This document shows positions 22,984 to 55,900 of a DNA stretch of 64,000 nt, one piece after another (positions within the stretch are counted from its first letter, which is position 1; every line of letters begins with the position of its first letter). Origin of the DNA: Symmetrospora coprosmae (Eukaryota; Basidiomycota; Cystobasidiomycetes; Symmetrosporaceae); contig VUYT01000013.1 of the NCBI GenBank assembly GCA_008802785.1, positions 186,001 through 250,000 on the forward strand, in the 5' to 3' direction. Made by a program: the position numbers and the translations under genes. The notes beneath the pieces were generated by a model. The model did no database searches. It was given only the letters and a program-made list of their open reading frames with translations, and was not told the DNA's origin.

Positions 22984-24138
22984 GGTGGATGCTCACTGGA
23001 TGGTCCTCTGACAGAAAGCGAGTGAGTGCGCGGCGTCGTCCGTCGTCAGCGGGCTCGGAGCGCGAGCCGAGAGCAGGCAGGGGGGCCGCATCGCTTCACT
23101 TCACTTCGAAAGACCTTGCTTGCAATGGCTCATACACGATATGAGCGATACCTGCACGGCTAGCAATGGCAATGGCCAGCTCATGACGCACAGAACAGTA
23201 CCTGGGCCGCTACGCTCACGGAAACCTTGCGCGGGGCCATGGAGTCACGAAACGACTTGGAGACTGTCGTCGGACCATCCGATGAACCCTCGAATCCTTC
23301 CAAAGCCTCCCTCCGGCATTCGTTCCGGAGTGGAGGGATGCGGAGTTGCACAGAGCGGAACACCGACGCGCTGATCCCGGTTCATGGCCGGTAGCTCGCA
23401 TCCTTCCAATTTGGTCAGGGGCGTCCGTCGTGTCAGTCAATGCAGACCGGATCCTCCCAAAACCCCGACTCACGGCACCGCACAAGCGCGATTATCAGCG
23501 AGGTTGACGACGGGTGCCACAGCTGCTTCAACCGTGCGAAAGAAACCCAAAAGATCAGCGGCTCATTTGGAAGGAGCCCGAGCTTCGGACGTTTTCGATC
23601 AACCTCGAGCTCCGTCTCACTTTTACGTGTGTATCGGCGCGGAGATTCCTGCCAGGCTGCACGCCCAGCATGCTCGTCCAGCCGGTGAGGGTATCGGGGC
23701 GGGCGCAGGGGGGCTGCGAAGTACTAAAGCCCGTCGTGTCCGTTGCGTTCCTCTCTCTTCTCTTCTCTCTCTTCTTTTCCATCCGATATCCATCACTCAC
23801 TTCCTGCCCCGCCCTCACTGAGTGAAGCTCTCCCACGACTGAATCAACGATAACGCCTGCAACGAACACGAAGACGCCAACGCAACGCTCTCAACGAAAG
23901 AACGCTGTCTGCTGTACTCCAACAAGGCTCACCTGACGACAACAGCGTAAGTCGAGTCGCTCTGTCCATAGCGCATACAAGCTTCACACATGCCCGCACT
24001 GCACTGCCTCTGCCCCTTGATGACCATGCATCAGCTGCTCCTCCCGCTCCTGGCCACGACCCGGAGGAGCGCAAGAGCCAGAGGACCCGAGCTGAGCAGC
24101 TGCTTCGTGTCCGACCTGAACAGCAGCTACGACGAAAC
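22984..24138. promoter_or_regulatory. Divergent intergenic region of 1.15 kb (RPT4 / Ser-Asn-rich gene)
   Basis: No gene is supported. A CT-rich tract at about 23747-23800 and A-rich leader sequence after 23840 suggest a strong plus-strand promoter. A good donor (GTAAGT at 23947) with possible acceptors before 24035 may mark a 5'-UTR intron of the gene starting at 24139. Confidence 0.45.
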
Positions 24139-25620
24139 ATGTCCCAATTGTCCAACACGCACTCTATGGTCTCGGCGATGCGCTCGAGCAGCGGACACCA
24201 GAACGATGAAGGAGAGCCGCGCCGCTGCCCCATGCTGCCCCTCTCGTCCTCTCCGCCCCCGACTGCTACCGGTACAGCAGCTTTCTCGCCCCAGTCCTCG
24301 CCCGTCTTCCTCAGCCCCGTCGGCGCGCCGTCCAGCGACTTCATCCCGTCCTCCACCCCCCTCGCCTCCATCCCTACTGCCCAGCTCTTCGGCAACGGAG
24401 CACCCTACCACAGCTTCCAGCCTCCAAGGACCGGACACGCGCAGTATCCCGCTCCAGGACTCGGCACCTCCTACTCCCACTTCAACCGCAGGATGAACAC
24501 GGTGACGTACGCCACGCCGTTCCAGCAGCAGCCCAACCAGCTGCAGATTGGCTTTGCCAGTAACGCTGCTCAGGGCTCGGCGGCTCAGGAGAATGGCCAG
24601 ACCTTGGCTGTCGACAGCATCTGTGTAGCTTCACCTCAGGGCAGCACTGGTGACAACAACAACATCACCTCGAGCACGTCGGAGTCGCTCTTCTACCGCG
24701 GCCTCCCCGCCTCGTCCAATTCGTCCAACCTCTACATCCAGGTCCCTTCCTCCGAGAACGAGGCTGGCGTCAGTACGGGAAGCGCTTTCTGGGTCACCGT
24801 CCCGTGGGACAAGGTCTCGGAGAAGGTCTCGCAGCACCACGACGTCATTTTTGATGTTCTGTCGCACGTCACCCGGGACCCTGTCCTGAAGCGCAAGGCG
24901 GAGCAGATGCTACAAAGCTCTACCGCCCCGGGTGGCAGCGAGGTCAGCGGCGAGCGCCGCATCAAGAAGAGGAAGCAGGACGCTGTCGTCCTCCAGACGC
25001 CCGCTTCCACCTCATCTGCCGATTTCAGCGACACCTCCTTCTTGGGTTCTGGCGACTTTAACCTCCCCGCCTCGCCTGTCTTTGGCGACGACGGTACCGC
25101 CAACACATCGCTCGCTCGTGGCACTGGTCCCTTCACCGCCGGAGGCGCCCTCTTCTCCCCCGCTACTGCTGCTTCGTTCTGGACCAACAACAACAACATC
25201 AGCAATAGCGAGCAGCAGAGCAACAACAATGGCGGCAGCGGCTACGACTCGTCCGCGTCCAGCATCAGCTCGCCCAACATCAACAACCGAGCCGGAGCTC
25301 TCTTCGCCTCGACGTTGTCGTCGTCGTCCTTCGTCGGAGCCCCAGGAGCCATGCCCGTAAGCAGCTGCCTCTCCCTTTCCTTTACTCCTATACAATCTCC
25401 GCTCGTGATCCGTGTGCGCCGGTTGGCTGGCGCACAGAGTCAGACCAGACCGTCGGCCAGCCGTTCCCCTTTCACCGCTACATGGAGCCTGTCGCAGCAC
25501 CGCCCAGTTCGGAGGTCGCGCGTGCTGTCTCCTTTGTGCGTGTGCAGAATTGGGACAGGCGCGTCGGACGGCGGGGACCCGCTACTTCGCCTGCCGCAAC
25601 CATCAGACGCACATTACTGA
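24139..25620 (+). CDS. Ser/Asn-rich low-complexity protein of unknown function (3' end uncertain)
   Basis: An ATG at 24139 opens a frame that looks coding at least to 25356 (406 residues). It is rich in Ser, Asn, Thr, Pro and Gln, as in many fungal transcription regulators. Only two segments look folded: FWVTVPWDKVSEKVSQHHD with DVLSHVTRDPVLKRKAEQML at about residues 215-260, and the basic patch GERRIKKRKQDAVV. After ATGCCC at 25356 a GTAAGC donor appears. The frame reads on to a stop at 25620 if unspliced. If the intron ends at 25439, the frame joins that of the next gene without any stop, which would make a single 859-residue protein. The C-rich sequence at 25640-25980, however, resembles a new promoter and leader. 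I therefore list it separately. No known domain is recognised. Confidence 0.6.
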   Translation: MSQLSNTHSMVSAMRSSSGHQNDEGEPRRCPMLPLSSSPPPTATGTAAFSPQSSPVFLSPVGAPSSDFIPSSTPLASIPTAQLFGNGAPYHSFQPPRTGHAQYPAPGLGTSYSHFNRRMNTVTYATPFQQQPNQLQIGFASNAAQGSAAQENGQTLAVDSICVASPQGSTGDNNNITSSTSESLFYRGLPASSNSSNLYIQVPSSENEAGVSTGSAFWVTVPWDKVSEKVSQHHDVIFDVLSHVTRDPVLKRKAEQMLQSSTAPGGSEVSGERRIKKRKQDAVVLQTPASTSSADFSDTSFLGSGDFNLPASPVFGDDGTANTSLARGTGPFTAGGALFSPATAASFWTNNNNISNSEQQSNNNGGSGYDSSASSISSPNINNRAGALFASTLSSSSFVGAPGAMPVSSCLSLSFTPIQSPLVIRVRRLAGAQSQTRPSASRSPFTATWSLSQHRPVRRSRVLSPLCVCRIGTGASDGGDPLLRLPQPSDAHY

Positions 25621-25682
25621 CGCTCTCACGCTGTTTCCCCCCTCTCCTCCGCTTAAATCTTGCGCATATCGACTGCCCAAAC

Positions 25683-26931
25683 ATGCCGCGCTATACTATC
25701 GACCCTCCGTTGGCACCTCGCTCCCATCCCGCGTATCACGTCCATGCCCGCCCTGTCTCGCGTCCTCTGCCGCTGCGATGCGCTACCTCGACCTCTTCGC
25801 CTCCATATCACGACACGCATGCGGGTACCTACCGCTCGCGCTCCCGTTCCCGCTCTCCCTACCGCACTCCCTCCCCACTATCGCACCGCTCGCCTCCGCA
25901 TCATCACAATCGCTCCTATTCGTCGCCGACATCGGCTCGGCGCCGCTTCTTCCCCTCTCAGGATACCCCGCCCACCCCTGCCATGACGGATTTCAGAGGC
26001 TCGGATGCGTCCTCCAGCATTGCGTCGACACTCAAGCCATGGGACCTGTCGCCCTCTCAGCTCAACAGCTTTGTCGGAGCATCGGGCGACGCCAAGCTCG
26101 GTCCATTCATGCCGCCCGCCTACCACCAAAAGCCAGTCCCGGCAGCCATGTATCCGCACCAGATGCAGCGCCCCGGCTCGTCCTTCGGTGTGGCCGCCAC
26201 CGAGTTCGTGCGGCCCATTGACACCAAGCCGCGCAGTATCAGCAACTCCGCCTCGATCGGACACGACGTCCTCGTCGGCGGGACCGGGGCGGTCCTCGTT
26301 GCTGCGCCTGACACGATCGACCCGTTCCTCCTTGCCCTGCCGGAAGTGCAGTCCAACTCGGCGACAGCAGAGTACGTCTGGTCGCCCAACGAGGTCTCGC
26401 TCTACGATGTCAACACGCCTCAGGGCAGGCAGGTCGTCAACGAGGCTGGGGCAATCAGGATGTCCTTCCCACCTGGCACGATGATCACGGCCTTTGAGAA
26501 GGACGGCACCGTCGCCTCGCCAGCTCACACCGCGCTGCACTCGCACAGCAATGAATGGTGGGCATCTCTCGCTGGGTTTTGACAAGAATGGTACGCTGAC
26601 ACCTTCTTATCCCCATCTCAATAGGCTCAAGGCTCAGGTCTGCCACCACCGCTGCCCGTACCGAGCGGGAACAGCATCTCTGAAGCGCCCAAAGACCGTC
26701 CGGGAGCACTTCCGCAAGGTGAGGCACTCCCACACCTTCCTCATTGTTGAATTGTATCTGACCGTCCTATCTTGTCTACAGTGTGTCTACCTGGACGAGA
26801 GACACCCGTTGAAGGTCCTTTCTGCGCTCCAGCTCAGCGTCCTCGAGCGAGAGTCGCAGGGTCTCCTGCCTAACCGGCGGCGAGCTCGCTACGGCCGCAT
26901 CGTGCCTACTCACACCAGGGCCCAGTCATAG
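25683..26931 (+). CDS. Uncharacterised protein, paralogue A of a tandem pair with C-x3-C-x17-H-x3-C motif
   Basis: Exons 25683-26557, 26625-26718 and 26782-26931 give up to 372 residues; an ATG at 25983 (MTDFRGSDASSS) may be the true start, because the sequence before it is C-rich like a leader. The N-terminal part is low complexity. The core starts at VAAPDTIDPFLL and continues through EYVWSPNEVSLYDV, FPPGTMITAFEKDGTVASPA and HSNEWLKAQVC, then YRAGTASLKRP, REHFRKCVYLDERHPLKVL and QGLLPNRRR. It ends 18 residues later. One intron splits the Trp codon of HSNEW (phase 2); another lies between FRK and CVYLDE (phase 0). The Cys/His spacing and the basic C-terminus suggest a zinc-bound nucleic-acid or protein binding module, but no known family was recognised. 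Its sister gene is at 28644-30983. Confidence 0.72.
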
Positions 26932-28643
26932 CGCTGAGTCTGGCAGGGGGCTCCAGCTCAGGTGACGCACCATTGACCAGACCAAAATGAGCCATCCTTC
27001 GTGGCCCCGCTCGTGCGCGCCCCACAATCCCCATTCTCCCCCCGACCCACAAGGATCGCGCCTCTTCCCACTTCACCTTGTAGCCATTCTTGTCCTTCCG
27101 CATAGACACGCACTCGCTTCCGCTTGGACCATTGAATCCGCTTTCACCATAGGACCCCCCTCTCAAGTCATGCCATGCAGCCTGTTTCTAGTCCGCAGAC
27201 CCCAGCTCCGTAAACTTGGTCATGACGTGCGCCATGTCGCTTGTCCATAGCATGTGTACTGCAGAATCCCTTGCAATGATAGTCAACCACGAGACCGAAT
27301 TGCGTCACATGCATGCCCGTGCCTGTCTCGAGCACTTCTGCACGGTGTGCTCTCAGTTTTGAACATCCCAGCATGACTTCGGAAGGGCACGCCTACTTTG
27401 GCTCAGCGTCATCTGAGGTCAATGCGATACATCACGCGCCCGCTTCTCCTGCTCCTGTAACGCTCCTGGCAGTATGGCCTTAGCTCCGAAGGCGCCCGCG
27501 CGCCCCTGGCAGCCAGGATGCTTGCTCCCAGACTGATGGCACGAGCGCCTCAATACAAGCACGCGCTGAGCTGCCATTCGTCGCACTGGTCGAATAGGCG
27601 CATTACTCTGTCTGTGTGGCCTTCGCCAGCACAGGCTGTCGTGTTGCGCAACGCGTCCTCAGCCCACGAGGTATACGTACCTGACAGGCCGTACTCGATA
27701 TCCGGGGTCATGCTTCGAGCACATCAAAGCCTACATACAGTAGTACCCAACCCAACAGCTCGTCAAGGATCCATTACGGCGTCAGCACTCGTCAGCCTGC
27801 GCTCACGCCCATGTTGGAGGTACCGTAGCTGCCGCTTTGGGAGCTCCCAACCAGGCCTCTCTGCGCCAGGCATTGCTGGCAGACTTCCTTGACCACTGTC
27901 GTAGCAGGAGGTTATCGCCGCCGTACCTTCACTCAGGGCCACCAGCAGCTCGCCCTGAACGATTTCCCTTTCTGTCGTGCCGGATGGAGGCCGATGATTG
28001 GGTACGAGGCGGCCACAACGTCCGATGCCTCGAATGTCTAACTGGCCACTCTGCATCCAGAGCTTCGGTCTGTCCCTGCCGAATACGAGTCTCAGCCAGC
28101 CTGGACTCCGCTAGAGATGCCGCGCACAACAACCAGGATTCCTGCCAACCAGCGATCGGCCACAAATGATAACTCGTCTGGAGAGGCCCGGAATCCTCTC
28201 GCTCGAGACTGTACAGCAGGAAGTGCCGCCTGGGGCAAGGCAGCCTGTCTTGCAGGGCTTCCTATGAAGCAAAGCTCTCAGCGAAGTTCGCCGGGCTACG
28301 TGGCTCTGAGCGCAAACCGTATCGCAGTCGCCTGGTTGGCGTCACAATCTCCCTTTCACGCGTCACGCATCACAAGACCAAGCGATCTACACCAAGGCAG
28401 AGGCAGGAGCCTCTACAGCCATCACGCCACCGGCCGAATGCTCCGCGAGAGGCACAGCCACGACTGTACCATTGACGGCCATTTAGCAGGCCCCTGTGTT
28501 CTCTCCCCTACCTGGCCACATTGCACCAGATCTTGCCGCCCTCGAACGTTGATGAGTCCCGCTCCGGCTCTCTCTCCCTCGCACCACAAGTCTATCAGCC
28601 CGTCCAGAAACCCGCTGTCTGCCACACGTCTAACCCGCATATC
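26932..28643. other. Intergenic between the tandem paralogues, 1.7 kb
   Basis: No frame here resembles the paralogues or any family. The frames of up to about 200 codons are short and overlapping. The sequence just before 28644 stays open in the frame of paralogue B back to 28521 but has no ATG there, so an upstream coding exon cannot be excluded. Confidence 0.4.
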
Positions 28644-30983
28644 ATGCTCGCATCGCAGCCGTACTCAATGCACATGCCTGCTCCTTGGATGCAGACCGAG
28701 TCAGGCAGCATGCACGATGGCGACAACAGCCGGTATATAACTGCTGCGGGTCCGCTCGACTATCGGCAGTATCAGATGCCCGATGACTCGACTGGCCCCA
28801 TGCCCGCCTCCGCTGCACTCCCACACCAGCCCAATCACTTCCCTCGTCTCGCCATGCAGCACTATGCCTCAGCGCCTGCCGTGCCGACGCTCATCGAGAC
28901 GTCCGCCAGCCCCGTCAAGAGCTCCGTCGCTGTGCGTCACATGCACGACTCAATGAGCGGGCTCTCCTCCGGCTACCCATCCATCATCGTTGCGCCGCCC
29001 GACACCATCGACAGCAGCATCGTAGCTCAGGTCGAGACCAACATTGGCACTGAGGAATACATCTGGTCGCCCCAGGACGCGACGCTGTACGAGCTCGGTA
29101 ACGCTCGGGCCCAAGCAGCAATCGGCGTACCGGGCGCCATCAAGCTGGTCTTTCCGCCAGCCACTGTGAGTTGGCGGTGTTGCGGTAATTCACTCGTAAC
29201 AACCTCAGCTGACTTCGCACTCACCCAGATGATCATGGCCTGGGAAAAGGATGGCAGTCTGGCCAGCCCCGCCTTTAGGCCACTACACCCACACTCGAAC
29301 CAGTGGCTCAAGGCACAGGTATGCAATAATAGCTGCGCCTACCGCGCAGGAACCAACTCGCTCAAGCGACCCATCACGATACGTGATCACTTCCGCAAGG
29401 TGAGCCCCATTGTAGTCCCCGTGTAGGCGGTGCCCCTGCTGACCGAGTCCCGACACCGCGATCTCCAGTGCGTCTACCTCGACGAGCATCACCCTCTGAA
29501 GGTCCTGTGCACACTCGAGCTAGCTGCACACGAGCGAGCTGCGCAGGGACTGCTTCCCAACCGAAGGCGCAGCAAGGGCAGTCGTGCCCCTAGCATTCCA
29601 AGGACCGTGAGTTGCGGTTGCGCCGCCCAATCTGCTGCATGCACACTAAATCCCGTACCTCTTCTCTCGCTATGCAAGGAGCCCGCCTCACCTGCTGCCA
29701 GAGCATCCTCCCGACGTGGCTCAATGGCTCGCAGCAGCAGTGCCCTCAGCACCGATGACTCCGCCTCCAATCGCTCGGGCGACTCTGGCGAACCTCGAAA
29801 TGACCAGCCGTCAGAGAGCGCTGGCGGTCTTCAGGTCCTCGGTGGAGACGACTTCAACCTTGGCGGCAGCGAAGAGGACATGTTCAAGACCCCGCCGACC
29901 GCCAACAAGGCAAGGCGCAACAGCCACATTGCTAGCTCAACGAGCAGTGGACAGGCGTCGGTGAGTTGCAGTGCCACATGCAGCTTCCCCAGGGTATACG
30001 ACGACACTGACCTCGTCCTATCGTTCCCTATTCTATTCTGACAGCAGCCATACCGGTCCTTGATGGGCGGCGCTTCCAGTCGAGCAGGTCCCTATCGCAG
30101 CGGACACGCCAGGCGACACACCCTGGCCGATATCCGAGAGATCGCTCCCGCTACCGAATCTGCTCAGCCCTGCGATGGAGGGATCTTTAACATGGACCCG
30201 CAGTTCCTGGCGCAAATGGCCATGCCGGCCACGCCTGCTATGCCTCTCTATCCTACGGTCAATGGCCAGCAGCACCCTCAGATGTACTTCAACGCCTTCA
30301 ACACCTCGGCCTCAACTGATGTAGGCCATACCCAGGACTATGGTCACTTGCTCGCCAACCTGGTGGGCTGCGGGGACCCGACCCTGTCGCTCGCATCGTC
30401 GACATACTCGCACTTTGGCCAGCGACCGCCGTCGCGAGGCCTTTCCGACGTCTCGTCCGCCACCTCATACTCGAACATGTCTGCAAGCGCTGATTCGAAC
30501 GATGCAGCGACTGGACATGAGACTGCTCAGCCTGCTCCGGCCTTCAGCTTCCCGCCCATGCCGGAGCCAGACTATTCCTGGGAAGGGGGGATGGGCGGAG
30601 TCGCCTTTGTTGGCGACCAGACTGGCTTCTTGTCCGCCGGAGGCTTCGACACTTCCATCTCGGACTACCTGCAGCACCGCCGTGGAAGCGTCGCTTCGAG
30701 CATCGGCGGCGATAGTGCGGTTGGCGAGGGGGAGGACATGAACATGCTCTTGAGTGGCAAGACACCGAAAGCCCGAGCCTTCTCCACGTCGTCCTCGCAG
30801 GCCTCATTCTCGACCACCTCATCGTCCTCATCGGCAATGGTTGATGGCGAGTACGACACGCTGGGGATGCAGCCTGGGCTCGATGGGTTGGCCAGTGACC
30901 TCAAGCTGGAGTCAGAGATGCTGTCGACCTCGCACATCCCTACTCCCCGTTTCCCTACCTTTCCATCTTTAGAGAGTACGTAG
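28644..30983 (+). CDS. Uncharacterised protein, paralogue B of the tandem pair, with long low-complexity C-terminus
   Basis: Five exons (28644-29165, 29229-29399, 29469-29606, 29679-29960, 30045-30983) give 683 residues. After about 115 variable residues the shared core begins: IIVAPPDTIDSSIV, EEYIWSPQDATLYEL, VFPPATMIMAWEKDGSLASP, HSNQWLKAQVCNNSC, YRAGTNSLKRP, RDHFRKCVYLDEHHPLKVL and QGLLPNRRR. Unlike paralogue A it continues for about 400 residues that are Ser/Ala/Gly/Met-rich with acidic patches, ending in FPTFPSLEST; this looks like a disordered regulatory tail. The phase-0 intron between FRK and CVYLDE is shared with A. The intron inside HSNEW of A is absent, and B has its own intron before MIMAWEKDG. 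No function can be assigned; a transcription-regulator role is plausible from the composition only. Confidence 0.75.
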
Positions 30984-31541: not shown

Positions 31542-34500
31542 ATGGCAGACAGGTATGCGTCCTGTAGCTCCCCCCTGTACCGCTGCGCTGGGTGCTGGGC
31601 GCTGGACTCTGGACTGACGCTGGCTGGACCATGCGCGCCGCCGCACTCACAGGCCCATCCAGTTCACGGAGCACCTGCAGGTGGGTTGCTCGCTCAGCGG
31701 CGATGACGACAACGGCGGCACAGATAGCCGCATACGGGCATACCAGTGCTGACCTCTCGCCCTCTTCCTGACGCAGCTCTCGGCTGTAGGGATTCAGCCG
31801 GCTTCCATCGGGTTCAACACTCTGACGATGGAGAGCGACCGCTTCATCTGCGCCAGAGAGGAGGTGCGGATGCGTCTTCCTGCGTGTTGAGATTGCCGCC
31901 TTCCTCTGGGTTGACGCTGATCCTGCGCGCACCCCTGCCTGTTGCGTCCTGCACTGCCTTGCCTTGCCTGGCCCGCCCTCGACCCCATCACCAGAACGCA
32001 GCCAAGAAGGAGGTGGTCATTGTCGACCTGAGCGATGCCAACAACACGACGAGACGGCCCATCAGCGCGGAGAGCGCTATCATGCACCCCACCGAGAAGA
32101 TCATTGCGCTTCGAGGTGAGCCGACGATGTTCTGCGCGCCTTTTCGCTGTGTGCCTGGCTTGACGCGCTGAACCCGTCCGTCCGGAACCGCACCTGCTCG
32201 CCTGCTCACAGCACAAAGACAGCTCCAGGTGTTCAACATGTGTGTCTCATCAGTCTGCGACTACTCGCCTGCACTCAGCTAAGTCAGTCATTCACCTGCA
32301 GTGACCAAAAGCAGAAGGTCAAATCGCACCTGATGCACGAGGTGCGTTGCCTCTAGCCTGGGTCGACTGCAACGGCGCGGTGGGACGGTGCTGACCCACT
32401 CATATCTGATCACAGGACGTCTCGTTCTGGAAGTGGATCTCGCCCGTCACGCTCGGCATTGTGACCGAGACAGCCGTGTACCACTGGCCTGCCACTGGCG
32501 AGGCACCGCCTACAAAGGTCTTTGACCGCCACGCCAACCTTTTGGGCCACCAGATCATCAACTACCGCGCCTCGAGCGATGAGAAGTGGCTCGTGCTCGT
32601 CGGCATTGCGTCCAACCCGTCGCCGGACGGCTTCAAGGTCAAGGGATCCCTCCAGCTCTACAGCACAGAGAGGAAGGTCTCGCAGCCCATCGAGGGTCAC
32701 GCGGCTGCCTTCGCCAATATCAACATCGATGGCAATGCGACCGAGAACAAGCTCTTCACCTTTGCCAACAGGACGGCCACCGGTGCTAAGGTGTGTTGGC
32801 GGTGCACGCCCTAGTCTGCCTCAGACAGCCTCTGACGAGGAGTATGCTCTATCTCGCAGCTACACATTGTCGAGATTGACCACGCCGCAAACGCGCCTGC
32901 GTACACCAAGAAGGCCGTCGACGTCTTCTTCCCGCCCGAGGCCACCAACGACTTTCCCGTCGCCATGCAGGTCTCGCGACGCTACGGCGTCGTATATCTC
33001 GTCACAAAATACGGCTTCATCCACCTGTACGACCTCGAGTCTGGAGCGTGCGTCTACATGAACCGAATCTCTGGCGAGACCATCTTCGTCACCTGCGAGC
33101 ACGAGGCGACGAGCGGCATCATTGGCGTCAACCGCAAGGGACAGGTGCTCTCCGTATCTGTCGACGACGAGACGGTCATCCCCTACATCTTGCGCACGCT
33201 CAACAACACCGAGCTCGCCATCAAGCTCGCCTCGCGCGCCAACCTGCCGGGCGCCGATGACCTGTACCAGCGCCAGTTCCAGCAGCTCTTCCAGAGCGGC
33301 TCATACTCGGAGGCTGCGAAGGTTGCCGCCAACTCGCCCCGGGGCATCCTCCGTACTCCGCAGACGATTGAGCTGTTCAAGGGCATCCAGGTCCAGGCCG
33401 GCCAGATGTCGCCCATTCTGCAGTACTTTGGCATCCTCCTCGAGAAGGGCAAGCTCAACAAGTTCGAGAGTCTCGAGCTCGCCAGGCCAGTCCTGGTTCA
33501 GGGCCGAAAGCAGCTGCTCGAGAAGTGGCTCAAGGAGGACAAGGTGGGTGTCTCGCAGGCTGAACATGGGAGGCGCTCGTGGCCTGATGTCGCTCGCCTC
33601 GCGTGTTCCAGATCGACTGCTCGGAGGAGCTCGGAGACATTGTCCGTGCCCACGACATGACGCTTGCGTTGTCCGTCTACCTTCGAGCCAATGTGCCCAA
33701 CAAGGTCGTCTTGTGCTTCGCCGAGACCGGACAGTACAGCAAGATCATTGTCTACGCACAGCGCGTGGGCTACACTCCGGACTACTCGACCCTGCTGCAG
33801 CACATTACGCGCTCAAACCCAGAGCAGGGTGCCGAGTTCGCAAAGATGCTCGTGCAGAACGAGGGCGGCGCGCTCGTCGAGCTCGAGCGGGTCGTCGACA
33901 TCTTCACCTCGCAGAACATGACGCAGCAAGCGACGTCATTCCTGCTCGAGGCACTCAAGGACAACCAGCCTGAGCAGGGGCACCTCCAGACCCGTCTGCT
34001 CGAGATGAACCTCAACAACGCGCCTCAGGTCGCCGATGCCATCCTCGGAAACGAGATGTTTACGCACTACGATCGACCAAGGATTGCAAACCTGTGCGAG
34101 AAGGCGGGGTTGTTGCAGCGGGTCAGTCTGCTCGCCACCTCTGTCGAGATGGCGACGAAAGCTGACTCGAGTTTTGTCACCGGCGACGCAGGCCCTCGAG
34201 CATTACGACGATCTGAACGACATCAAGAGGGTTGTTGTCAACACGAATCTCATCAACCACGACGTGAGTTAGCTCCATCCGAACCTGCAATGACGTACTG
34301 ACGCAATACTTTCTTTTCGACGCGATAGTGGCTCGTCAACTACTTTGGCAGGCTGACGGTCGAGAACACCCTCGAGTGCTTCAAGGAGATGCTCCGCGTC
34401 AACATTAGGCAGAACCTGCAGGTTGTCGTCCAGGCTGCGACCAAGTACTCCGAGCTCGTCGGCCCAGTCAGGCTCATCGAGATGTTCGAGTCTTTCAAGA

Positions 34501-37500
34501 CATTCGAGGGTGAGCCGAGACCGACTGTGTCTACCTAGTCAAGGAACGAGCTAAGGCAGATCCCGCAGGTCTATACTACTACCTCGGCTCCATCGTCAAC
34601 ATGTCGACGGACTCGGAGGTGCAGTTCAAGTACATTCAGGCAGCCACCAGGACCGGACAGATCCGCGAGGTCGAGCGAATCTGCCGAGAGAGCAACCACT
34701 ACAACCCGGAGAAGGTCAAGAACTTCCTCAAGGAGGCCAAGCTGCAGGACCAGCTGCCCCTCATCATCGTCTGCGACCGATTCGGCTTTGTGCACGACCT
34801 CGTCCTCTACCTGTATCAGAACGGCCTGCAGAACTTCATCGAAGTTTACGTGCAGCGTGTCAACTCTGCCCGGACGCCTCAGGTCATCGGCGGTCTGCTA
34901 GATGTCGACTGCGACGAGAGCACCATCAAGCAGCTTCTCGGCTCTGTCACTGGGCCGATGAGCATCGACGAGCTTGTCGAGGAGGTCGAAAAGCGCAACC
35001 GCCTCAAGCTCATCCTGCCTTTCCTCGAGAGCAAGATCGCTGCCGGACAGCAGGAGCCGGCGTTGTATAATGCTATCGCCAAGATCAGCATTGACAGCAA
35101 CAACAACCCCGAGTCTTTCCTCAAGGAGAACAACGTGCGTCTCTGTACGCTTGCGAGGCTTCGAGCTCGACTGACTCGTCTGTGGCTGCCTCTTGCAGAT
35201 CTATGACCCGCTCGTTGTCGGAAAGTACTGCGAGAAGCGAGACCCTTACCTCGCCTACATCGCCTACGCCAAGGGTCTGTGCGACCAAGAGCTCATTGCC
35301 ATCACGGATGAGAACTCGATGTTCAAGCACCAGGCTCGCTACCTCGTCAAGCGGAGACAGCTCGATCTGTGGACGTCTGTTCTCAAGCAGGACAATGTCC
35401 ACCGGCGTCAACTCATCGACCAGGTTGTCGCCACAGCCGTGCCAGAGTCTATCGACCCTGAAGACGTTTCCGTTACCGTCAAGGCATTCTTCGCAGCCGA
35501 TCTGCCGGGCGAGCTTATCGAGCTGCTCGAGAAGATTGTTCTCGAGCCTTCCGCTTTCAACGACAACGCCAATCTCAAGAAGCTTCTCCTGCTCACCGCC
35601 ATCCGATCCGACAAGGGTCGCGTCATGGCCTACATTGACAAAGTCGAGGGCTTTGACGTCCAGGAAATTGCGGCCATTGCCATCGAGAATCAGCTCTACG
35701 AGGAGGCGTTCACCCTGTTCAAGAAGAACAGCCTGCACCTTGATGCAGTCAACGTCCTCGTCGAGTACATCGTCTCGATCGACCGGGCCTACCAATTTGC
35801 TAACAAGGTCAACGAGCCTGCCGTCTGGAGCCGTCTCGGTAAAGCCCAGCTGGACGGTCTTCGTATCAAGGATGCCATCGGTGGGTCGCTCTTTCGCCTT
35901 ACGGGCCGAGATTGCAGCGGCTAATGGTTTCCTGCCGGCTTAGACTCGTACATCAAGGCTGGCGACCCGAGCAACTATGGCGAGGTCATCGAGACTGCCG
36001 AGCGAGCTGGCAAGCACGACGACATGGTCCGATACCTGCAGATGGCCCGGAAGACGTTGCGCGAGCCGAAGATCGATACGGAACTCGTGGTCGCGTACGC
36101 CAAGACGGACCGCTTGTCCGACATGGAGGAATTCCTGGCCATGACGAATGTTGCGGACCTGCTCACTGCCGGAGAGCAAGCATTCGAGGCCAGCCTGTAC
36201 GAAGCCGCCAGGCTCCTATTCTCGAGCATCTCCAACTGGGCTCGGCTCGCCACTACGCTCATCTACCTCGGCGAGAACCAGTCTGCCGTTGATGCTGCCA
36301 GAAAGGCCGGCAACACCCAGTGAGTTCCTTCGTCGTTGGGGTGCACCGCTTCCGAAAGCTAACACGGCAAGGTGCCGCCTACCAGGGTCTGGAAGCAAGT
36401 CAATGCCGCGTGTGTTGACAAGAAGGAATTCCGACTGGCGCAAATTTGCGGTCTTAACCTTATCGTTCACGCTGAGGAGCTTCAGGCACTTGTCCGCCTC
36501 TACGAAACTCAGGGCTACTTTGAGGAGCTCATGTCTCTGCTCGAAGCCGGACTTGGCCTCGAGCGGGCGCACATGGGCATGTTCACCGAGCTGTCCATTC
36601 TCTACGCCAAGTACCGGCCGCAGGCATTGATGGAGCATCTCAAGCTCTTCTGGTCGCGGGTGAACATTCCAAAGGTCATCTCCGCTACCGAGAAGGCGCA
36701 CCTCTGGTCCGAGCTTGTCTTCCTCTACGTCAAGTACGACGAGTTTGACAACGCTGCACTGCAGATGATGGAGCACTCTGGCGACGCCTTTGACCACAAT
36801 CAGTTCAAGGAGATTGTAGTCAAGGTCGCCAACATCGAGATCTACTACAAGGCTCTCAACTTCTACATCGAGCAGCAGCCTCTTCTCCTCAACGACCTCC
36901 TCTCTGCCCTCAGCCCTCGCATCGACCACTCCAGGGTCGTCAAGCTCATCATGAAGCACGATCACCTCCCTCTCGTCAAGCCGTATCTTATCGCCATCAA
37001 ATCACACGACCTCGAGGCCGTCAACAATGCCTTCCACGATCTCCTTATCGAGGAGGAAGACGCTGCGACACTGCGAGACTCAATCGACACCAACACAAAC
37101 TTCGACAGTCCCGCTCTCGCTGCACGGCTGGAGAAGCACGAGCTGCTCGAGTTCCGGAGGATCGCAGCGCACCTGTACAAGAAGAGCGGGAAGTGGGACG
37201 ACTCCATCGGGCTCAGCAAGGCCGACAAGCTGTACAAGGATGCCATGGTTACGGCTGCAGAGTCGCTGCAGCAGGAGCAGGCCGAGGATATCCTGAGCTA
37301 CTTTGTTTCGCTCGGGAACAAGGAATGCTACACCGCATGCCGTGAGTGGCTTGCTGCTGCTTTCCTCCGCGCGGTCTGCACACAAAAACCTGATGCCCTT
37401 CCCTCTTGCTGCCAGTGTACATCTGCTACGACCTCTTCCGCCCTGACTTCATCTCGGAGCTGTCGTGGAGACATGGCCTCAACGACTTTACGATGCCTTA

Positions 37501-37717
37501 CACGCTGCAGGTTCAGCGCGAGCAGTACACGCGCGTGACTGCGCTCGAGGAGCTAGTGAAGAAGCTGTTGGCCAAGGACGAAAAGAAGGAGAAGGAGGAG
37601 AGCGAGGCCCCCATCCTCGGCGGCCTTGGCGGGCGGCTGATGATTGGCAATGGCCCGGTCAACGGCATGGCGCCGCCACAAATGCAGATGCAGACAGGGA
37701 TGCCTGGGTTCTACTGA
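31542..37717 (+). CDS. CHC1: Clathrin heavy chain
   Basis: Sixteen exons join in phase to 1672 residues, the normal length: 31542-31552, 31653-31680, 31777-31863, 31995-32115, 32212-32239, 32302-32341, 32416-32790, 32860-33543, 33612-34121, 34192-34263, 34329-34509, 34569-35134, 35199-35880, 35944-36319, 36386-37341, 37416-37717. Clathrin heavy chain forms the triskelion legs of coated vesicles at the plasma membrane and trans-Golgi. The N-terminal propeller starts [14 protein letters not shown] and includes [20 protein letters not shown]. The CHCR leg repeats follow, for example [20 protein letters not shown] and [13 protein letters not shown]. The trimerisation region has [20 protein letters not shown], and the disordered C-terminus ends QTGMPGFY. 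Introns are crowded in the first 900 bp and include a first coding exon of only 11 nt. Confidence 0.98.
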
Positions 37718-42190: not shown

Positions 42191-42585
42191 GTACAGCGAT
42201 GCACAACTCTCATGGACAAGCAGCAGCAGCAGCAGCAATGGGAGATGCGCAACTCGCTTCGCGCTCTTCCGTTTCCTGCTGCACGCAGTCAGTGTGATGC
42301 AGCAAACGCGTGACGTACGCTTCGTCTCCTGCAGGCTGAGCCCACAGCCTAGAGGTGTAGCTAGGTAGGGCGAAAAGCAATGCATGCAAGCATTGCTGTG
42401 GTGTTTGTGCGTACACGGGGTGGACTGTTCTGCCTCATGCAATGCATCCTGTTGCGATTGTCAGAAGGAGAAGCGGCGGCCGCCTGCCCCATCCCATCCA
42501 TCCTCCAGGCCCCTTTTGTCGCCATGCTTGCGTCCGACTATCGCCAACCATGACGGCCATCTGATACAGCACACACACACCATCC
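42191..42585. promoter_or_regulatory. Divergent promoter, ArfGAP / formin
   Basis: 395 bp shared by two divergently transcribed genes. It contains an AGC repeat (about 42217-42236), a perfect 8-bp inverted repeat with a 6-nt spacer at 42376-42397 (arms AGCAATGC and GCATTGCT), and a short CA run just before the formin ATG. No proven factor site. Confidence 0.5.
42376..42397. repeat. Inverted repeat in divergent promoter
   Basis: Arms of 8 bp are perfectly complementary around a 6-nt centre (ATGCAA). The ATGCATGCAA core makes it partly palindromic at a second register. Could be a dimeric factor site; no function shown. Confidence 0.6.
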
Positions 42586-45500
42586 ATGTCGACACTGTTC
42601 GGGCGGCATCGCAAGGGGAGATCGCGCACCATCAGCTCGGGCGATGGGGATAGCAGCGAGGGAGGAGGGGGAGGAGGGATGACCACCAGCGTACCGTACA
42701 GCGCGACGGTCGCACCCGCAGTCCCGCCAGTCCCTAGGCAGGCACAGGCAGAACCGCCAACAGCATCAGGATTGGGATTGGGATCAGGATCAGGCTCAGG
42801 CAGCGGAGCATCGGCACTGCGCTCCTCCACCTACTCTGTGTCGTCCCCTCGACCGCCTCCGCCGCCGTCGTTGGTCCCTGCGTCGGGTGCAGCACCCGCG
42901 TCGTCGTCGCGTGCCCGCTCCTCCCAGCAGCAAGGGACAGCAGCTGACAGCAGCCATCTGCTCAAGCAGCAGTCGCAGCCATCGTACCAGCGTCATGCTG
43001 CATCGCAGCAGATGCACGGGCCGGGCCCGCGCGATATCACCCCGCCCGTGCACCTCATCCCGGAGCGCAGGCCCTACGAGGACGCGCACAACCGCTCGCG
43101 CACCCCAGATCTAAGGCGACAGCACAGCTACACGTCTACCACCACCACCGACGAGAGCAACAGCAGCATACGCTCCGCAACGTCGTCGTCCCGCGGGAGC
43201 AGCCGGAGAGGAGATGCTGCTGGAGAGGACCCGTGGCTGAGTGCCACTGCGCTCGAAGGTAGTGCAGGAACGGCCAGGTCTAGACAGGACAGCACCGCGA
43301 GCAGGGACTCGACGGCCTCCAACACCACTTTGGCCGTGAGGCGGCACCATGGAGATTCGCTCTCGGCGTCAGCCGCCGCATCGTCCACATCTTCGTCAAG
43401 CTCGCACCACCCTGCCCAGAGGAGCAACAGCAGCAGGAGCTCGAGATCCGGTGGCATCTACTACCCTCAAGAGATGGGTTCACGGTTCTCAACGACCAGT
43501 TCGAGGGGTGGAGGCGGTGGAAGCGGTGGCAATGCGGATCTCTCGCGCCAGGACACAGTCTCGTCGACCAGGTCATCTTCTCGCGCCGACAGCTCCATGA
43601 CCAGCACATCCCACGCAGCGCCTTCGTCTCCGCCGCTCCGCCATACCAACTTTGCCCAGTACCCTTATGGCACGCCGTCCGCCAGCGACCGCTCCATGCG
43701 CTCATCGCAGGCGTCGAGCCACTCGATGCACTCGCAGAAATCGTCCACCTCCCTGAACAGCACGCACAGCACGAGCATGACGACGCCGACCATGCCGTCG
43801 CTCTCCACTCCGTCCCTCACATCCTCCGAGTTTGTGTTTCCGCGCCCAAAGAACGAGCAGGACATCGAGTACCTGTTCCAGGACCTGCTCGAGCGTACCA
43901 CCGTACCCCTGAATCGCCGCGACGAGATGGCGCGGTACCCGACAAACAAGAAGTGGGTCATGGTCTACAACGACAAGCTGCAGGACTGGCAGCAGGCCCG
44001 CAAAGCGCTCGGGTCGGGCTCGGACAACCGGATGAGCCTGAGCGTGCACGGAACGCCCACCATGCTTTCTGTCGGCTCGTCCGCCGCGTCGGCCGCCGGC
44101 TCGTCGGGGCATGGCCACGAGCATACACACACGCCCATCATCCAGCAGGCCGTAAACGCACTCGCGAGCATTCCGTCCGCAAGCACGGCCGCCCGGACGC
44201 GCGGCAAGACAGAGACGCCAGAATGGTACCTTACCAAGTTCATGGACGGGAGCATACAGCCTGCGACCGTGTCGAGCTTGCGTGTGGCGCTGCGGACGTA
44301 CGAGATTGCGTGGGTCGACACGTTCGTCGTCAAGCTGCAGGGGCTGTCCGTCCTCACGAACGCCCTGGCCAACATCACGCGGCTGCCGATACCGCGCAAG
44401 GAGCAGGATCTGCACCTCGAGCTAGAGATTGTCAAATGTCTCAAGGATCTCCTGCAGCGCAGTCAGGTGCGCACTACCATCGCAGCTGTTGCGAGCGCCA
44501 AGCCAGACAGGCTGACATGCCTGTGCCTCTCTGCAGATCGGCCTAGACGCAGCTCTCCACTACCCGCACTGCATCTTCAGCATTGTCCTCGACATCTCAT
44601 CCCCGCACATCCAGGCCCGCAAGCTCGTCATGGATATGTTGATCTTCCTGGCCTATCAGACGAAAGAGAACGTCACGGGGCACAACTACGTCCTGCGAGG
44701 CCTAGACAATCTGATGAATGTCAGAGGGGATCACGGCCGCTTCGACGCATGGTTCACCATCCTTGAGACTACCCTGGATGGGCGGGGCAAGATGGGAAGT
44801 CTCGTCGGAGCCAGTGACGAGATCAAGACGTTGCGCGGCCGAGAGGCACAGATGGCCATGCAGGCTGCCAACGCCGCTGATAGCTCGGGCGAGGGTGCCT
44901 TGGTCGAGTACTGTGTGAGTACTTCTGCTCATACTGCGATTGCCGTGCCGTCAGTTGCTGAAGCGGGTCCCATCGCAGCTTTCCAACATCCTCTTGATCA
45001 ACGCGATAGCCGTGATACCTGAGGAGCTAGAGATCAGGCTGCATCTACGTCAGCAGATGGAGGCTTCCGGCTTGGGTCGGATTCTCGGCAAGATGCGCGA
45101 CCTCAAGCACAACGAGATTGAGCGACAGCTCGATGCGTACGAAGAACGAGCCGACAGCGATCACGACGAGTTTGTCCGGCACTTCAAGGAGGATACTCTG
45201 AAAGACTTTCAGAACCCCTGGGACGTACTCCGAGCCATTCTATCGTCTGTCGAAGGGTCCCGCGCCTACGACTTTTTCGTCTCATCATTGCAGCACATGC
45301 TCTTCATCAAGCAGGAAGGCGAGGCGAAGGTGCGATACTACCAGATCATCGACAGCCTCATCACGGCCATCGTCTTCGATCGCAAGCCTGTCGACAAGGA
45401 CTTCTCCTCCGTCGTCGGGACCAGCGTGGCCACACTCGCTGCAAAGTTTTCGGACCAGGCGCGCCTGCAGGAGATGGAGGAGGAGCTGACCGTCTTCAAG

Positions 45501-48500
45501 CAGGTCAACAACAAGCTCAAGCGCGAGAAGAAGGAGCTGCAGGAGGAGGTCGGGCGGCGCGAGGAGGGACTCGTGGGGGAGCTCAAGACGCAGGTCTTTC
45601 GCGCCGAGGAGGACCTCGTCGTTTCGCGCCAGGCGAGCGAGATGCTCAAGACTAAGCTGAATGAGGTCGAGAAGTCGCACAGGGATGCCATGGCTCAGCA
45701 GGACCTGCAGATTCGCGAGCTCTACAACATGCTCAAGGAGGCGCGGACGCTTGAGAGCGTGCAGGACGACGATGGCGTCCTCGACCGCCGAGAGCTGATG
45801 GCGCTCACGCAGAAGAAGATCGAGCGGGCCAAAGCCATTCAGAGGCTCGAGGGCAGACACATCAGCCGGAACGGCAGCGGACCGCTCGATGCGAGTCCAT
45901 TTCCGCGCAAGCCCGCTGTGGCATCGCCTGCGCAGTACGATGCTGCCGGTTCTAGCTCGGACAAGAACACGCCCGGCAATCGCGACACGCGCAAGAGCAT
46001 GTTTGAGGATGCCGACGACAATGCTGTCCGGGAGCACATTGAGCAGACACTGGCTGCGGGATCAGCGCATCTCGGCTTGATGCCGGATGGCAGCAGTGCC
46101 ATGTCGCCGCAGCAGAGCACGCGGCTGCGAGACCGGACCAGAGGAAGCCCCTCGCCCTCAGCCACGCGGCAGATGCAGTACTCGCCCTCGACCCCTCTCT
46201 CGAGAAGCGGCAGCAAAGACAACACTCCAGTGCCTTCGAGAGCACAAACGGAGATTGCGAAACTTCAGCAGGCATCTCCCACGCAGTTAAAGCCCTCCGT
46301 GTCTGCGAACAGTGGCCGCTTTGGTGCCAAACAGCTGCCAGTTAATCTCCTCGCTTCCATCAAGGCACGCAACTCGCCCGCCCGAGACGCGGAGGACGAG
46401 AGCGAGAGCACATACACGCGCGAGTCGAGCAGTTTCAACACGATGCGCTCGGACGATACTGCTCTCACATCGCTTCACTCGCGGCAGGACTCCGGCGTCT
46501 CGACACCGGAACGACCGCCCAAGTCACACAGGCGCACGCCGACAGGCGAGAGCCTCGAGCTGTCGGGTTCTGCTCAGCCAAGCTCGCCATCTTTGCGGGT
46601 GTCGATTGATCCTGTCATGCGGGGCCCATCGCCAACTTCGCCCCTCGCGCAACATAGCCTTTTGCCAGGTGTGCCGATCTCTTCCGAGCCCAGCTCGATG
46701 CTGGCCAGGACCGCGCCATCGGCTAGTGGCCCACCTCCACCTCCACCACCTCCGCCACCACCTCCTCCACCTGCACCCGGCTTCAACAGAAGCTTGTCAG
46801 CTCCTATTGGCGCATCATCTGCGCCCACTCCTCCACCGCCACCGCCTCTTCCAGGCTCGTCTTTCCCCGCGAGGCCATCCATGCCTGGTGGCTTCCTCTC
46901 CGAGCTCAAGCAACCCCGTCGCTTAGTTGCTCTCGGTGACAATGCGAAGATTGTCGGCAAGGATGATATTGTCGGGCCCGCAGGCAGCCACATCACTTTG
47001 CCCGAGAGGGGCGTCTTTGTTCCACCGCCACCTGCACCACCCCGGGCGCCCGGCGCACCTGGCGCACCCAGACCTCCAGGCCCCCCCTCTGCGCCTAGCT
47101 CCGCGGCGATGACGCCGAACCTTAGCGGGCCTGGTGGGCGGCTGCGGAAGGAGATGCCCTTCATGGCCAACATCCAGATGAAGCAGGTCAACTGGGAGAC
47201 GATCAGTCCGGACAAGCTCGATCATACTATCTGGGCAGCAAATGACGTGGATGAGATGGAATGGGCACAGAAGCTCAAGGAAAAGGGCATCTTCTCGCAA
47301 ATGGAGGACGAGTTCAAGGCGAAGCAGATTGTCAAGGCGGCAGCCTCGAAGAAGAAGAAGGAGTACGTCAGCGTGCTGGAGCCGAAGGCCCAGGAGAGAA
47401 TTGGTGAGTTCGATGGCAGCTTTGCAAACTTTCGCAAGTATCGTCTGAGTAAATGGCCTCCTGCTGCAGAAATTCTCATCAAAAAGATGTCGAACGAGCA
47501 GGACATGGTCAAAAAGCTGCTTGCCATCGCCCACGGCATCTACGCCTACGATGAAACGCTGTGTACCGAGCACTTCTTAACGGAGCTCTTGCCGATGCTA
47601 CCTAACCCACAGATGCAGGGCAAGCTGAATCAGCACAAGACGGAAGACGAAGCTTCGTTGGCGCTGCTCCACCCTGCAGATCGTTTCTTGGTCGAGCTCA
47701 TGAAAATTGAGCACCTGACCATCAGGGTCAACGGAATGCTCTTCCGCGGCACTTTTGCCGAGAACTACTCTGCGCTTGTCCATGTGAGTAGTTGGGTAGA
47801 GAGATGTTCAGATGGGAAGATGGACGCTGACGGGTTCTGCAAACGGTCAGAACGCTTCTGCCATTGCCCAAGCTTCCGAGAGTCTTCGAGAGGCACAAAA
47901 GTTCAAGCGTCTGCTCAAGTTTATCCTCCTTATGGGCAACTACAATAACGGTATCGGAAGGAACGGTGGAGCCTTTGGCTTTAAGCTGGCCAGTCTCAAC
48001 CGGATCGTCGACACGAAAGCAGCAAGCGGAGGCACGTACCTCCATTTCCTGCAGAGGACTATTCAGGAAGCCGAACCCGATCTTGAGGGTTTCGTTGACG
48101 AGATTACACAGCCTGCCGAAACTTATCGCCGTAAGTGGCTATTCGTGCCGATGATCAGCGTGCAAATGGGTATCACTGGAGACTAACGGTCGGCCTGCGT
48201 CCGCAGTGAGCCTCGCCGACACGCGGAAAGGCCTCAACGAGCTGCAAAGCAAGCTTCTTGTGGTCTCGAGCGCGCTCAAGCGGTACTTTGAGGACGCGCT
48301 GGACAACGACAACGAGGACGGCTATGCGATCAAGATGTTCAAGTTCGTTGGGCAGGCCAGATCGCAGCTGCAGTCGCTTGAGGACAGAGTGACGCTCGCC
48401 GAGTCGGCCTTCTCGAGCGTCTTGACGGCATTTGACGAGAAGTCCGACACGCAAACGACGGACTTCTTTGGGCACTTGAACCAGTTCCTGGCGTCGTACA

Positions 48501-52900: not shown

Positions 52901-55900
52901 TGCTTCGAAGAGGGCGAGGACCGAGCCACTTTCGACTATCTCGATGCTTCCGCTGCTACGAGTGCCGGCCCATCGCGATTGGTAGACAGGGCAGGCCGAA
53001 GCCAGGAGGATCTGCCAAGCGGCGTCATTACACGATTCACCAAATGCTATTCACCGTTCTGTGGCATGGATGGCATGACAGGAGCTTGCTACTCTCTCTA
53101 CTGTCCGAATGGAGCGAATCCGGTAAGTGGCCGTGCCGTCTAGGCCGTATCGTCGGAGCTCGCTGACTGTCTCATCAAACTTGTAGCTCGGCCTCAAGCG
53201 CAAGCCCTCATCAGTGTCTCTGGCGCAGTCAGCGGAAGAAGCTGCGCCGCCTGAAGCCTGGGCATCAACGGCGTCAGCGGAACTTATGGAGCAGCTTGGC
53301 CCAAAGGAGGTGGCTCGGCAGAACGTCATCTACGAGATCATCACGGGAGAGCAAGCTTACAAGAAGGATCTCGATATGCTCGAGACTGCCTTTCACGAGC
53401 CGCTACGCCTGGCCGACCCGCCCGTCGTGCACCCCGTGCGGCTTGTCGAGTTCACCAATCAAGTCTTCGCCAATTTGGATGAGCTGCGCACGCATTCTGG
53501 AAGGCTCATCGGTGCTTTCTTGGTCAGGCAACGAGAACAGAACCCAGTTGTCCACTCCATTGGCGACATCATTCTCGATGCTGCCCTGGAATGGGGCCAG
53601 GCTTACATGGACTATGCCGAGGCCCAAGTGATGGGAGAGTATCTGGTCAACGAGGAGAAGAACCAAAACTCGGCTTTCTCAACCTTTCTTGCTGTGCGTT
53701 ACCTTGTGTTGGGTCTGACAGCTTTCACAAGACTGACCTGCCTGTCTCTGCCCGGCCGCGTCCTCGCAGTCCCGACGTGAAGCATTCGGCATTAAGCAGG
53801 ACTTCCGTCACTACCATTTGCGGCCAACGATCCGACTGCAGCGATATCTCCTTCCGTTGGCCGAATATGTCAAGCGGACACCCGAAGATCATCCAGATCG
53901 CGAGAACGCTCAGGAAGCTATGCGCATCATTCGCGAGCAGTGTGCCGCTTGCGACGCCTATGTCGCGACTGCGCAGCTCAAGCTAGCTTGCATCCGCTAC
54001 GATAAGCTGATCGAAAAGGATGCCAACTTTACGGTGCGTGATGCCTCGGTACTCACGGATTTGTACCTGCCGGCTGATGGCTTCCCTGAACTAGAACGAC
54101 CTCGATCTACGAGACCCTGTACGCCAGCTCTTCCATCACGGCAAGATGTTCACAAAGCCAGAGGGCACCCTTGCGGAATGGACAGAGTACCAAGTTATGG
54201 TCTTCGATAATTACCTCTGCATCGCCAAGCCGCGGCGCACTGTCGAGGGCTTTCGCCTCATTCAGAAGCCAATCAGGCTCGAGATGCTCACCCTGTCCGG
54301 GTGGGACCAGCCATCTCAGCTGCGGTCTTCTGGCTTCCACCTGCGAAGCGTGATAGGCTCGTCGAGCGATCGACGCGAGGCCAGCTCCAATGCAGCCGCT
54401 GCTGCCGAGACACGGATGTGGCCGATTCAGTTTCAAATCGCTGGTCGGTCGGGAGGCACCCTTACTCTCTTCGTTGAGTCGCCGCGTAATGAGAAGGATG
54501 ACAAGGTCAGGCAGACGTGGAAAGTCAAGACCGAGCAAGCGATCGCAGTCCGCAAGGCCGAACTCGATGCCAGGAAAGTGTTCCAGCTCAACCTGCTCGT
54601 TGATCCGGACTTGCGCAAACCTTCGCCAACGGGAACACCACATCCAAATATGGGGGAGGTCCTATCCTCTTGCCCGTTCAACGGTCCATCGGGACAGCCT
54701 CTCATCGCTGTTGGCACCCGCAATGGTCTCTTTATTGCGGTTCGACGTGATCCGACAACGCTTCGGCAGATCCTGCAAATCCCGACCTCGCAATGCGCCG
54801 TCCTGCAGGACTTTGGCCTATTCCTCGTGCAGACCGAGGGCCGCCTACTTGCCTACCTTCTCGAGACGCTTGTGCAGTCCTCTTCCTCCAGTGAGGCTAA
54901 GGGGCAGCAAGGACCACAACAAGTCTCGGGCCAGAAGGAGGTGACTTTCTTCAAGGTCGGCAGGGTCGGTGAAAGGACGCTCGTGGTATACGCCAAGCGG
55001 GATGGAGTCAGCTCGACGGTTCTGAAGGCGATGGAGCCCGTGGCAGGCATTGAGCGATCACGCGTGCAGCAAACGAGATTCCTCGGAATGGGAGGCAAGA
55101 AGACGGAATGGTTTAGGTTGTTCAAGGCGAGCGGCCCATCTATGGTCTGGTACATCCACATCTGCCGTTCAGTGTTCTGACAGGCTGTTGCTCCCACCAG
55201 GACGGAGGAGTGCCGACGGCAGTGTACACCCTATCCTTCACGCGAAGCAAGCTTGCGCTGGTCTGCGCACCGGGCTTCGAGATCCTCGATATTGAGACTT
55301 TGCGGTCGGGAAGCGTGAGTCACGTCTGTTCAGGCCCGTCCGCACCGGGAGATGGCTCACGCGGACAGATTCATTGGTCGTCCTAGTTCCCGGACTGGAA
55401 TATGATCAAGACGAACCCGAGCAAGTACGATACGAACATGATCGCTCTGCAGCGCAGATGCTCCGTTTCGCGTGCGATCGCCCTGTTCCGCATCTCGGAC
55501 AGCGAGTTCCTCTTCTGCTACGACAGTGAGTCCAAACTCCCCTGTCTCTACATTGCTGAAGGAGTCCTTATGCTCACGCTGTGCACCTGCTTCCAGGCTT
55601 CGCCTTCTTCGCCGACCGGCACGGCGACCCGCTCAAGGAGAGAATGAACGACATCATCGAGTGGGAAGGACGGCCCGATACGGTCGTATTTTACCGTCCA
55701 TACGTGTTGGCCTTTGACACGCGCTTCGTCGAGATCCGTGATACATCGCAGCGCGGCAAGCTGGTCCAGGTCATCAACGGCAGCAACATCCGATGCAGCT
55801 ACGACGGGCAGGGCGTGCCCAGTAGCGAGATTGAGCTGCGAGTTGGCGGAAGTCGAGATGCGGAAGAACGCAAGCCGCACCTAGTGATGCGGAAAGGCAA

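Follow-up and report, generated by a model that had tools for sequence, protein, structure and literature searches.

The tandem genes and their shared core

The analysis of a stretch of 64,000 nucleotides (nt) from the basidiomycete Symmetrospora coprosmae (contig VUYT01000013.1, positions 186,001–250,000; hereafter the window, whose own positions are used throughout), with a G+C content of about 60%, revealed two neighbouring genes on the plus strand, gene 1 and gene 2. Both of them were confirmed, and their spliced proteins have one core in common. This pair, together with a probable 605-nt intron of gene 1, is the subject of the present work.

Gene 1, in the form in which it was originally predicted, encodes 372 amino acids (25683–26557, 26625–26718 and 26782–26931). 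Alignment and coding signal place the core's N-terminal half in 25962–26557; the following exon (26625–26718) spans LKAQVC to HFRK and embeds the first two cysteines and the histidine of a putative zinc site, while the last one (26782–26931), recognised by alignment, runs from CVYLDE to QGLLPNRRR and the stop codon. Gene 2 encodes 683 amino acids and is split into five exons: exon 1 (28644–29165), backed by alignment and coding signal and with a candidate position for the exact start codon; exon 2 (29229–29399), with the core as far as FRK; exon 3 (29469–29606), with the end of the core and an RRR cluster; exon 4 (29679–29960), encoding a Ser-rich tail; and exon 5 (30045–30983), encoding a disordered tail whose last part includes segments that are acidic and rich in Leu, Met and aromatic residues.

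Both genes are backed by a codon model, in which they score 0.207 and 0.193 bits per codon; the six open reading frames (ORFs) of the window used for its training, all of them with Pfam domains, score 0.135–0.43. Little coding signal is present between them, the six-frame maximum being 0.197 (150-nt windows, 27000 to 28350). The six short introns of the pair are of the GT-AG type and 63–84 nt long. The core is interrupted by two introns in each gene; one of these, in phase 0 between FRK and C, is common to both genes, and the others are not.

The spliced proteins align with 95 identical residues out of 172 (55%; E 1e-64), in agreement with the original prediction of a tandem pair with a common core, and all the core motifs quoted there can be read in the alignment. 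The architecture outlined on that occasion was also recovered: the flanks are unrelated (the best blastp match of the gene 1 N-terminus to the gene 2 flanks has an E of 0.69), gene 1 as predicted stops right after the core (10 residues past its aligned end), and gene 2, expected to add about 400 residues, runs for 413 residues beyond it. The ORF located upstream of gene 1, discussed below as a candidate first exon, gave no significant match to gene 2 (best E 0.72).

The two copies had been described as duplicated and diverging, and the present data bear this out: the pair stems from an old duplication, and its core has evolved under constraint. Over 167 codons of the core, the nonsynonymous divergence (dN) is 0.338 and the synonymous one (dS) 1.739 (NG86 method), and of the 52 fourfold sites located in codon boxes common to both copies, 39 differ, i.e., they are near saturation while the protein has been kept. 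The second half of the core has 50 identical columns out of 71, with 13 invariant Lys/Arg and 5 invariant Cys/His, and it is basic (17 and 14 Lys plus Arg in the two copies, versus 5 and 5 Asp plus Glu); the first half is acidic, with 45 identical columns out of 96. That one copy is a decaying duplicate, as the great differences outside the core might suggest, is highly improbable, both frames being intact over three to five exons and the dN/dS of the core being about 0.19 (a pairwise value without an outgroup, hence not assignable to one branch).

The genome (an assembly of 20.05 Mb in 77 contigs) was searched with the protein in six frames, exon by exon, and the best candidates were scored. 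The searches returned six and then seven matches, according to which the core is encoded at these two loci only. The seventh match, on contig C8 (E 0.68), was considered as a third copy and rejected, since it fails realignment (best local score 26). On contig C8 (98471–101734, 3.3 kb), several frames repeat a similar peptide (CAG.GCAAYP.DLS..PFVRFVL..TEADG), as might be expected of small tandem paralogues.

The start of gene 1 and its probable 605-nt intron

Upstream of gene 1, a coding signal of 0.15–0.47 bits per codon is found in frame 0 from 24150 to 25350; no frame carries it from there to about 25950, where it resumes in frame 2. The start codon originally assigned to gene 1 (25683) is probably wrong, the first 93 codons (25683–25961) being nearly without coding signal and probably noncoding in the main transcript: residues 1–50 score −0.081 and residues 51–100 score 0.045, while the later ones score 0.22–0.39. 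At 25357, where the upstream coding signal stops, GTAAGC is found, the only GTRAG within 24100–26000, and a CAG acceptor at 25961, located after CTTCTTCCCCTCT, restores the gene 1 frame in phase 0. The upstream ORF would thus represent the first exon of gene 1 (24139–25356, plus strand), with 406 codons encoding a disordered segment that carries a basic RRIKKRKQ cluster. Joining 24139–25356 to 25962–26931 yields a protein of 685 amino acids with no internal stop, nearly equal in length to the 683 of gene 2, and in which the core is C-terminal, while in gene 2 it lies near the N-terminus. On the basis of the AG-free run and the branch motif described below, of the in-phase CAG, and of a sole GTRAG located where the coding signal stops, gene 1 is probably one gene of 685 amino acids starting at 24139, some 1.5 kb upstream of the start originally assigned, and interrupted by an intron of 605 nt (25357–25961, phase 0).

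The candidate intron contains a run of 354–355 nt devoid of the dinucleotide AG (25606–25959, plus strand). At 355 nt, it is the longest such run in 264 kb on both strands, the runner-up measuring 186 nt, and the longest run lacking the control dinucleotide GA in the same 264 kb measures 213 nt. The run holds no AG versus eight GA, the number of AG predicted by its composition being 8.4, and none of 20,000 shuffles of it lacked AG. A CTGAC branch motif, the only CTRAC in 25357–25961, sits 11 nt into the run (25617–25621). Its putative branch adenosine (25620) is also the last base of the TGA (25618–25620) at which the frame-0 ORF ends if the intron is retained. The distance from this branch to the acceptor is 341 nt; in the six other introns of the pair it is 16–34 nt, measured from branch-like motifs that read CTGAC in five introns and CTAAA in the sixth, one intron having an additional CTGAC 3 nt before its acceptor. 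Nowhere else in the window, on either strand, does a CTRAC precede an AG-free stretch of 100 nt or more that ends in YAG. Moreover, in a comparison with 100 dinucleotide-preserving shuffles, the AG-free zone proved less prone to folding than 99 of them, which fits an open tract. With an AG-free zone that reaches the acceptor and has the branch motif at its 5' end, and with a consistent donor and phase, the stretch 25357–25961 is built like an intron with an AG exclusion zone, and these sequence features suggest that it is spliced. According to the proposed mechanism, the spliceosome would proceed from the branch to the first AG that it can use, and the whole 341-nt interval would hence be kept AG-free.

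Several observations weigh against this interpretation. The probability of an AG-free run of this kind is about 1e-4 on base composition alone, a far weaker value than the 1e-9 given by the window-wide rate of G after A. Of the AG-free runs measuring 120 nt or more (n = 27), just 4 show a CTRAC within the initial 30 nt and 16 terminate in CAG or TAG, which means that long AG-free runs are not generally intron ends here. Pyrimidine-rich windows of the plus strand are AG-poor, with a median of 3 (n = 25, many of them overlapping this zone), the corresponding minus-strand windows (n = 70) holding no fewer than 8, with a median of 14, and pyrimidine-rich leaders are likewise AG-poor. With its GTAAGC, the candidate donor departs from the GTG found at the start of each of the six other introns; furthermore, the same donor would also restore the frame with an acceptor at 25449, 25461 or 25548, none of which has a CTRAC. 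Lastly, if gene 1 were a separate gene, its leader intron would make use of the same AG-free zone.

The latter arrangement, in which gene 1 has its own promoter, a leader intron ending at 25961 and its start at ATG 25983, the upstream ORF being another gene that ends at about 25620, appears rather unlikely. That ATG does follow shortly after the acceptor, where the coding signal begins, and the upstream ORF can reach 25620 either unspliced or with a short intron leading to 25438, 25444 or 25498. However, no further GTRAG that might serve as the leader donor exists in 25357–25606 (looser GTRNG sequences occur at 25412 and 25536), and the 88 codons from 25357 to 25620 are without frame-0 coding signal (−0.084 and −0.241 in the windows at 25350 and 25500). 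It is quite improbable, in turn, that translation starts at 25683 as originally predicted, with an Arg/Ser-rich stretch of 93 residues, perhaps in an isoform transcribed from a promoter inside the intron. The ATG at 25683 has CT-rich surroundings and is preceded by CCCAAAC, and frame 2 contains no stop between 25209 and 26582; yet two of the three frames are stop-free in the AG-free run, so that openness there mirrors composition, because no AG means no TAG, and the coding scores of the first 100 residues given above speak against translation. In this way, the AG-free zone makes the intron resemble the start of a gene.

The single-gene model with its 605-nt intron can be compared with introns known to have distant branch points. 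As stated in extracts from a work on human introns of this kind (PMC2991248), the branch point tends to sit at the 5' end of the AG exclusion zone, and long branch-to-acceptor distances accompany exon skipping. For yeast introns, an AG depletion between branch and acceptor is mentioned, as data not shown, in an extract from PMC11651659. The candidate intron resembles those of human MBNL1, CLK1, HTR4 and other genes, as they appear in the extracts from PMC2991248, in that a branch motif heads a long AG-free, pyrimidine-rich tract ending at the acceptor. Unlike them, it is located in a short-intron genome, at a distance of 341 nt that contrasts with the 16–34 nt of its six neighbours. The largest AG-free zone among the human examples displayed in the same extracts measures 291 nt. 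As for the length of the intron, extracts from PMC2219887 report a mean of 69 nt in Cryptococcus neoformans and of 170 nt in Ustilago maydis; since introns of the latter reach 1,899 nt, one of 605 nt is long yet not unheard of. Among the literature matches listed, including those on distant branch points in fungi, no description of this intron was found.

The core compared with known families

The original prediction had assigned the core to no known domain family, and at the available sensitivity no match contradicts it. Both whole proteins and the 685-amino-acid model of gene 1 matched no Pfam family up to an E of 10; both cores had no match in NCBIfam, and the gene 1 core had none in the PDB by sequence. 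As the HMMER filters discard most weak matches, clear family membership is excluded by these searches and a remote one is not. A two-row profile gave six PDB matches, to catalase-peroxidases and neuropilin (E from 0.38 to 1.2), which were dismissed as chance. The best of them is a weak ungapped match of core columns 34–82 to a C-terminal segment of catalase-peroxidase (E 0.38), but it is not significant and the core has no haem-peroxidase context. No relative was found among 32 pattern stretches of a virus collection (viral_contigs). One of 94 pattern stretches of a prokaryote collection (genome_contigs) matched over 49 residues with 35% identity; it lies antisense to an intact Bacteroides ORF, presumably encoding an IspD-type protein, and was also dismissed as chance. 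The core family is not described among the literature matches listed, and none of the six papers containing the motif strings concerns, by its title, a fungal regulator.

A confident compact fold had also been expected, and the models obtained do not bear this out. AlphaFold2 was run on single-exon pieces of the core rather than on the spliced core, and these reached a mean predicted local distance difference test score (pLDDT) of only 50.6 (the gene 2 finger exon, 57 residues, without the last Cys) and 52.0 (98 residues of gene 1, corresponding to the first half of its core). In the latter, residues 31–70 form blocks with a pLDDT of 64–79, modelled as strands and a short helix. A Foldseek search with the better piece returned 144 matches up to an E of 10, none of them at or below 0.001 (best 1.3, no PDB match lying below this value). 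Both models are thus poor and uninformative as to function.

Both copies carry the pattern C-x3-C-x17-H-x3-C (C105, C109, H127 and C131 of the gene 1 core), in which a hydrophobic-x5-hydrophobic-x2-H element precedes the last ligand; a later conserved histidine (H138 of the aligned gene 1 core) is an alternative candidate for the fourth ligand. After joint shuffling of the columns, the pattern appeared in both rows in 22 of 200,000 shuffles, and in the gene 1 row alone in 82. The spacing of C2H2 zinc fingers is C-x2-4-C-x12-H-x3-5-H/C. The core is similar to the C2H2 transcription factors (PF00096) in its two cysteines, in its hydrophobic-x5-hydrophobic-x2-His element, as in the C2H2 helix, in its basic surroundings and in its disordered flanks. 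It differs from them in having a cysteine as last ligand, five extra residues between the second cysteine and the helix, and a single site accompanied by an invariant N-terminal extension of 95 residues.

Other results count against a zinc finger. The pattern was defined after viewing the sequence, and the shuffle test uses that same pattern. A profile built on 12 C2H2 fingers of the same genome gave no match with gene 2 and 0.5 bits with gene 1, a value that was reached by 107 shuffles out of the 3084 that received a score (of 5000 made); a genome search with Pfam zf-C2H2 listed 18 places, none of them in the pair. Neither profile nor spacing thus places the core in PF00096. Since both the 12-finger profile and the Pfam search miss the pair, the Cys/His site may act like a zinc finger, yet one lying outside the C2H2 family.

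Possible functions of the pair

The overall interpretation, to which we give roughly an even chance, is that the two old tandem paralogues are nuclear regulators binding nucleic acid via their common core, with gene 1 joined together by the 605-nt intron. The core, of about 165 residues, would bind DNA (or RNA), its basic second half carrying one Cys/His zinc site. In gene 1, this putative binding module would be placed C-terminally after splicing of the upstream ORF; in gene 2, it would be followed by the long disordered tail as a putative activation domain. In this tail, residues 636–665 have a net charge of −6, and 10 of the 30 are Trp, Phe, Tyr, Leu or Met; these acidic, Leu/Met-rich hydrophobic patches look like an activation domain. 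A regulatory role of the pair is plausible from such features, to which zinc binding, nucleic-acid binding and activation would contribute.

A less favoured possibility is that the core represents a protein-interaction or metal-sensing module, and that the two proteins are scaffolds rather than transcription factors. No DNA-binding profile matches the core, and its acidic first half, with the modelled strands and short helix mentioned above, would suit such a role. The better conserved second half, being strongly basic and having invariant cysteines and histidines, speaks against it.

A bolder version of the regulator interpretation, which we regard as unlikely, would have the 605-nt intron as a regulated switch, with a slow or controllable splicing due to its AG exclusion zone of about 341 nt, and the core as a novel domain that binds zinc and reads DNA. 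With the intron retained, translation would stop at the TGA containing the branch adenosine and yield a protein of 493 amino acids without the core; its removal would yield the 685-amino-acid protein with the DNA-binding core.

As regards the other genes of the window, 32836–37535 contains exons of a clathrin heavy chain (Pfam Clathrin, Clathrin_H_link and Clathrin_propel), and 42565–47945 a Diaphanous-type formin (Drf_GBD, Drf_FH3 and FH2). PH_5 and CNH domains are encoded at 54095–55177, the product of which we take to be a probable Rho exchange factor.

If the intron is true, a short-intron genome would harbour an intron whose branch lies over ten times farther from the acceptor than in the neighbouring introns, with AG purged throughout the interval. 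It would then represent a natural test of how far the fungal spliceosome can reach in search of an acceptor, and it would caution against gene finders, which would cut one gene into two at this point. If the core binds DNA, the pair would belong to a family of regulators that domain-based catalogues of transcription factors would miss.

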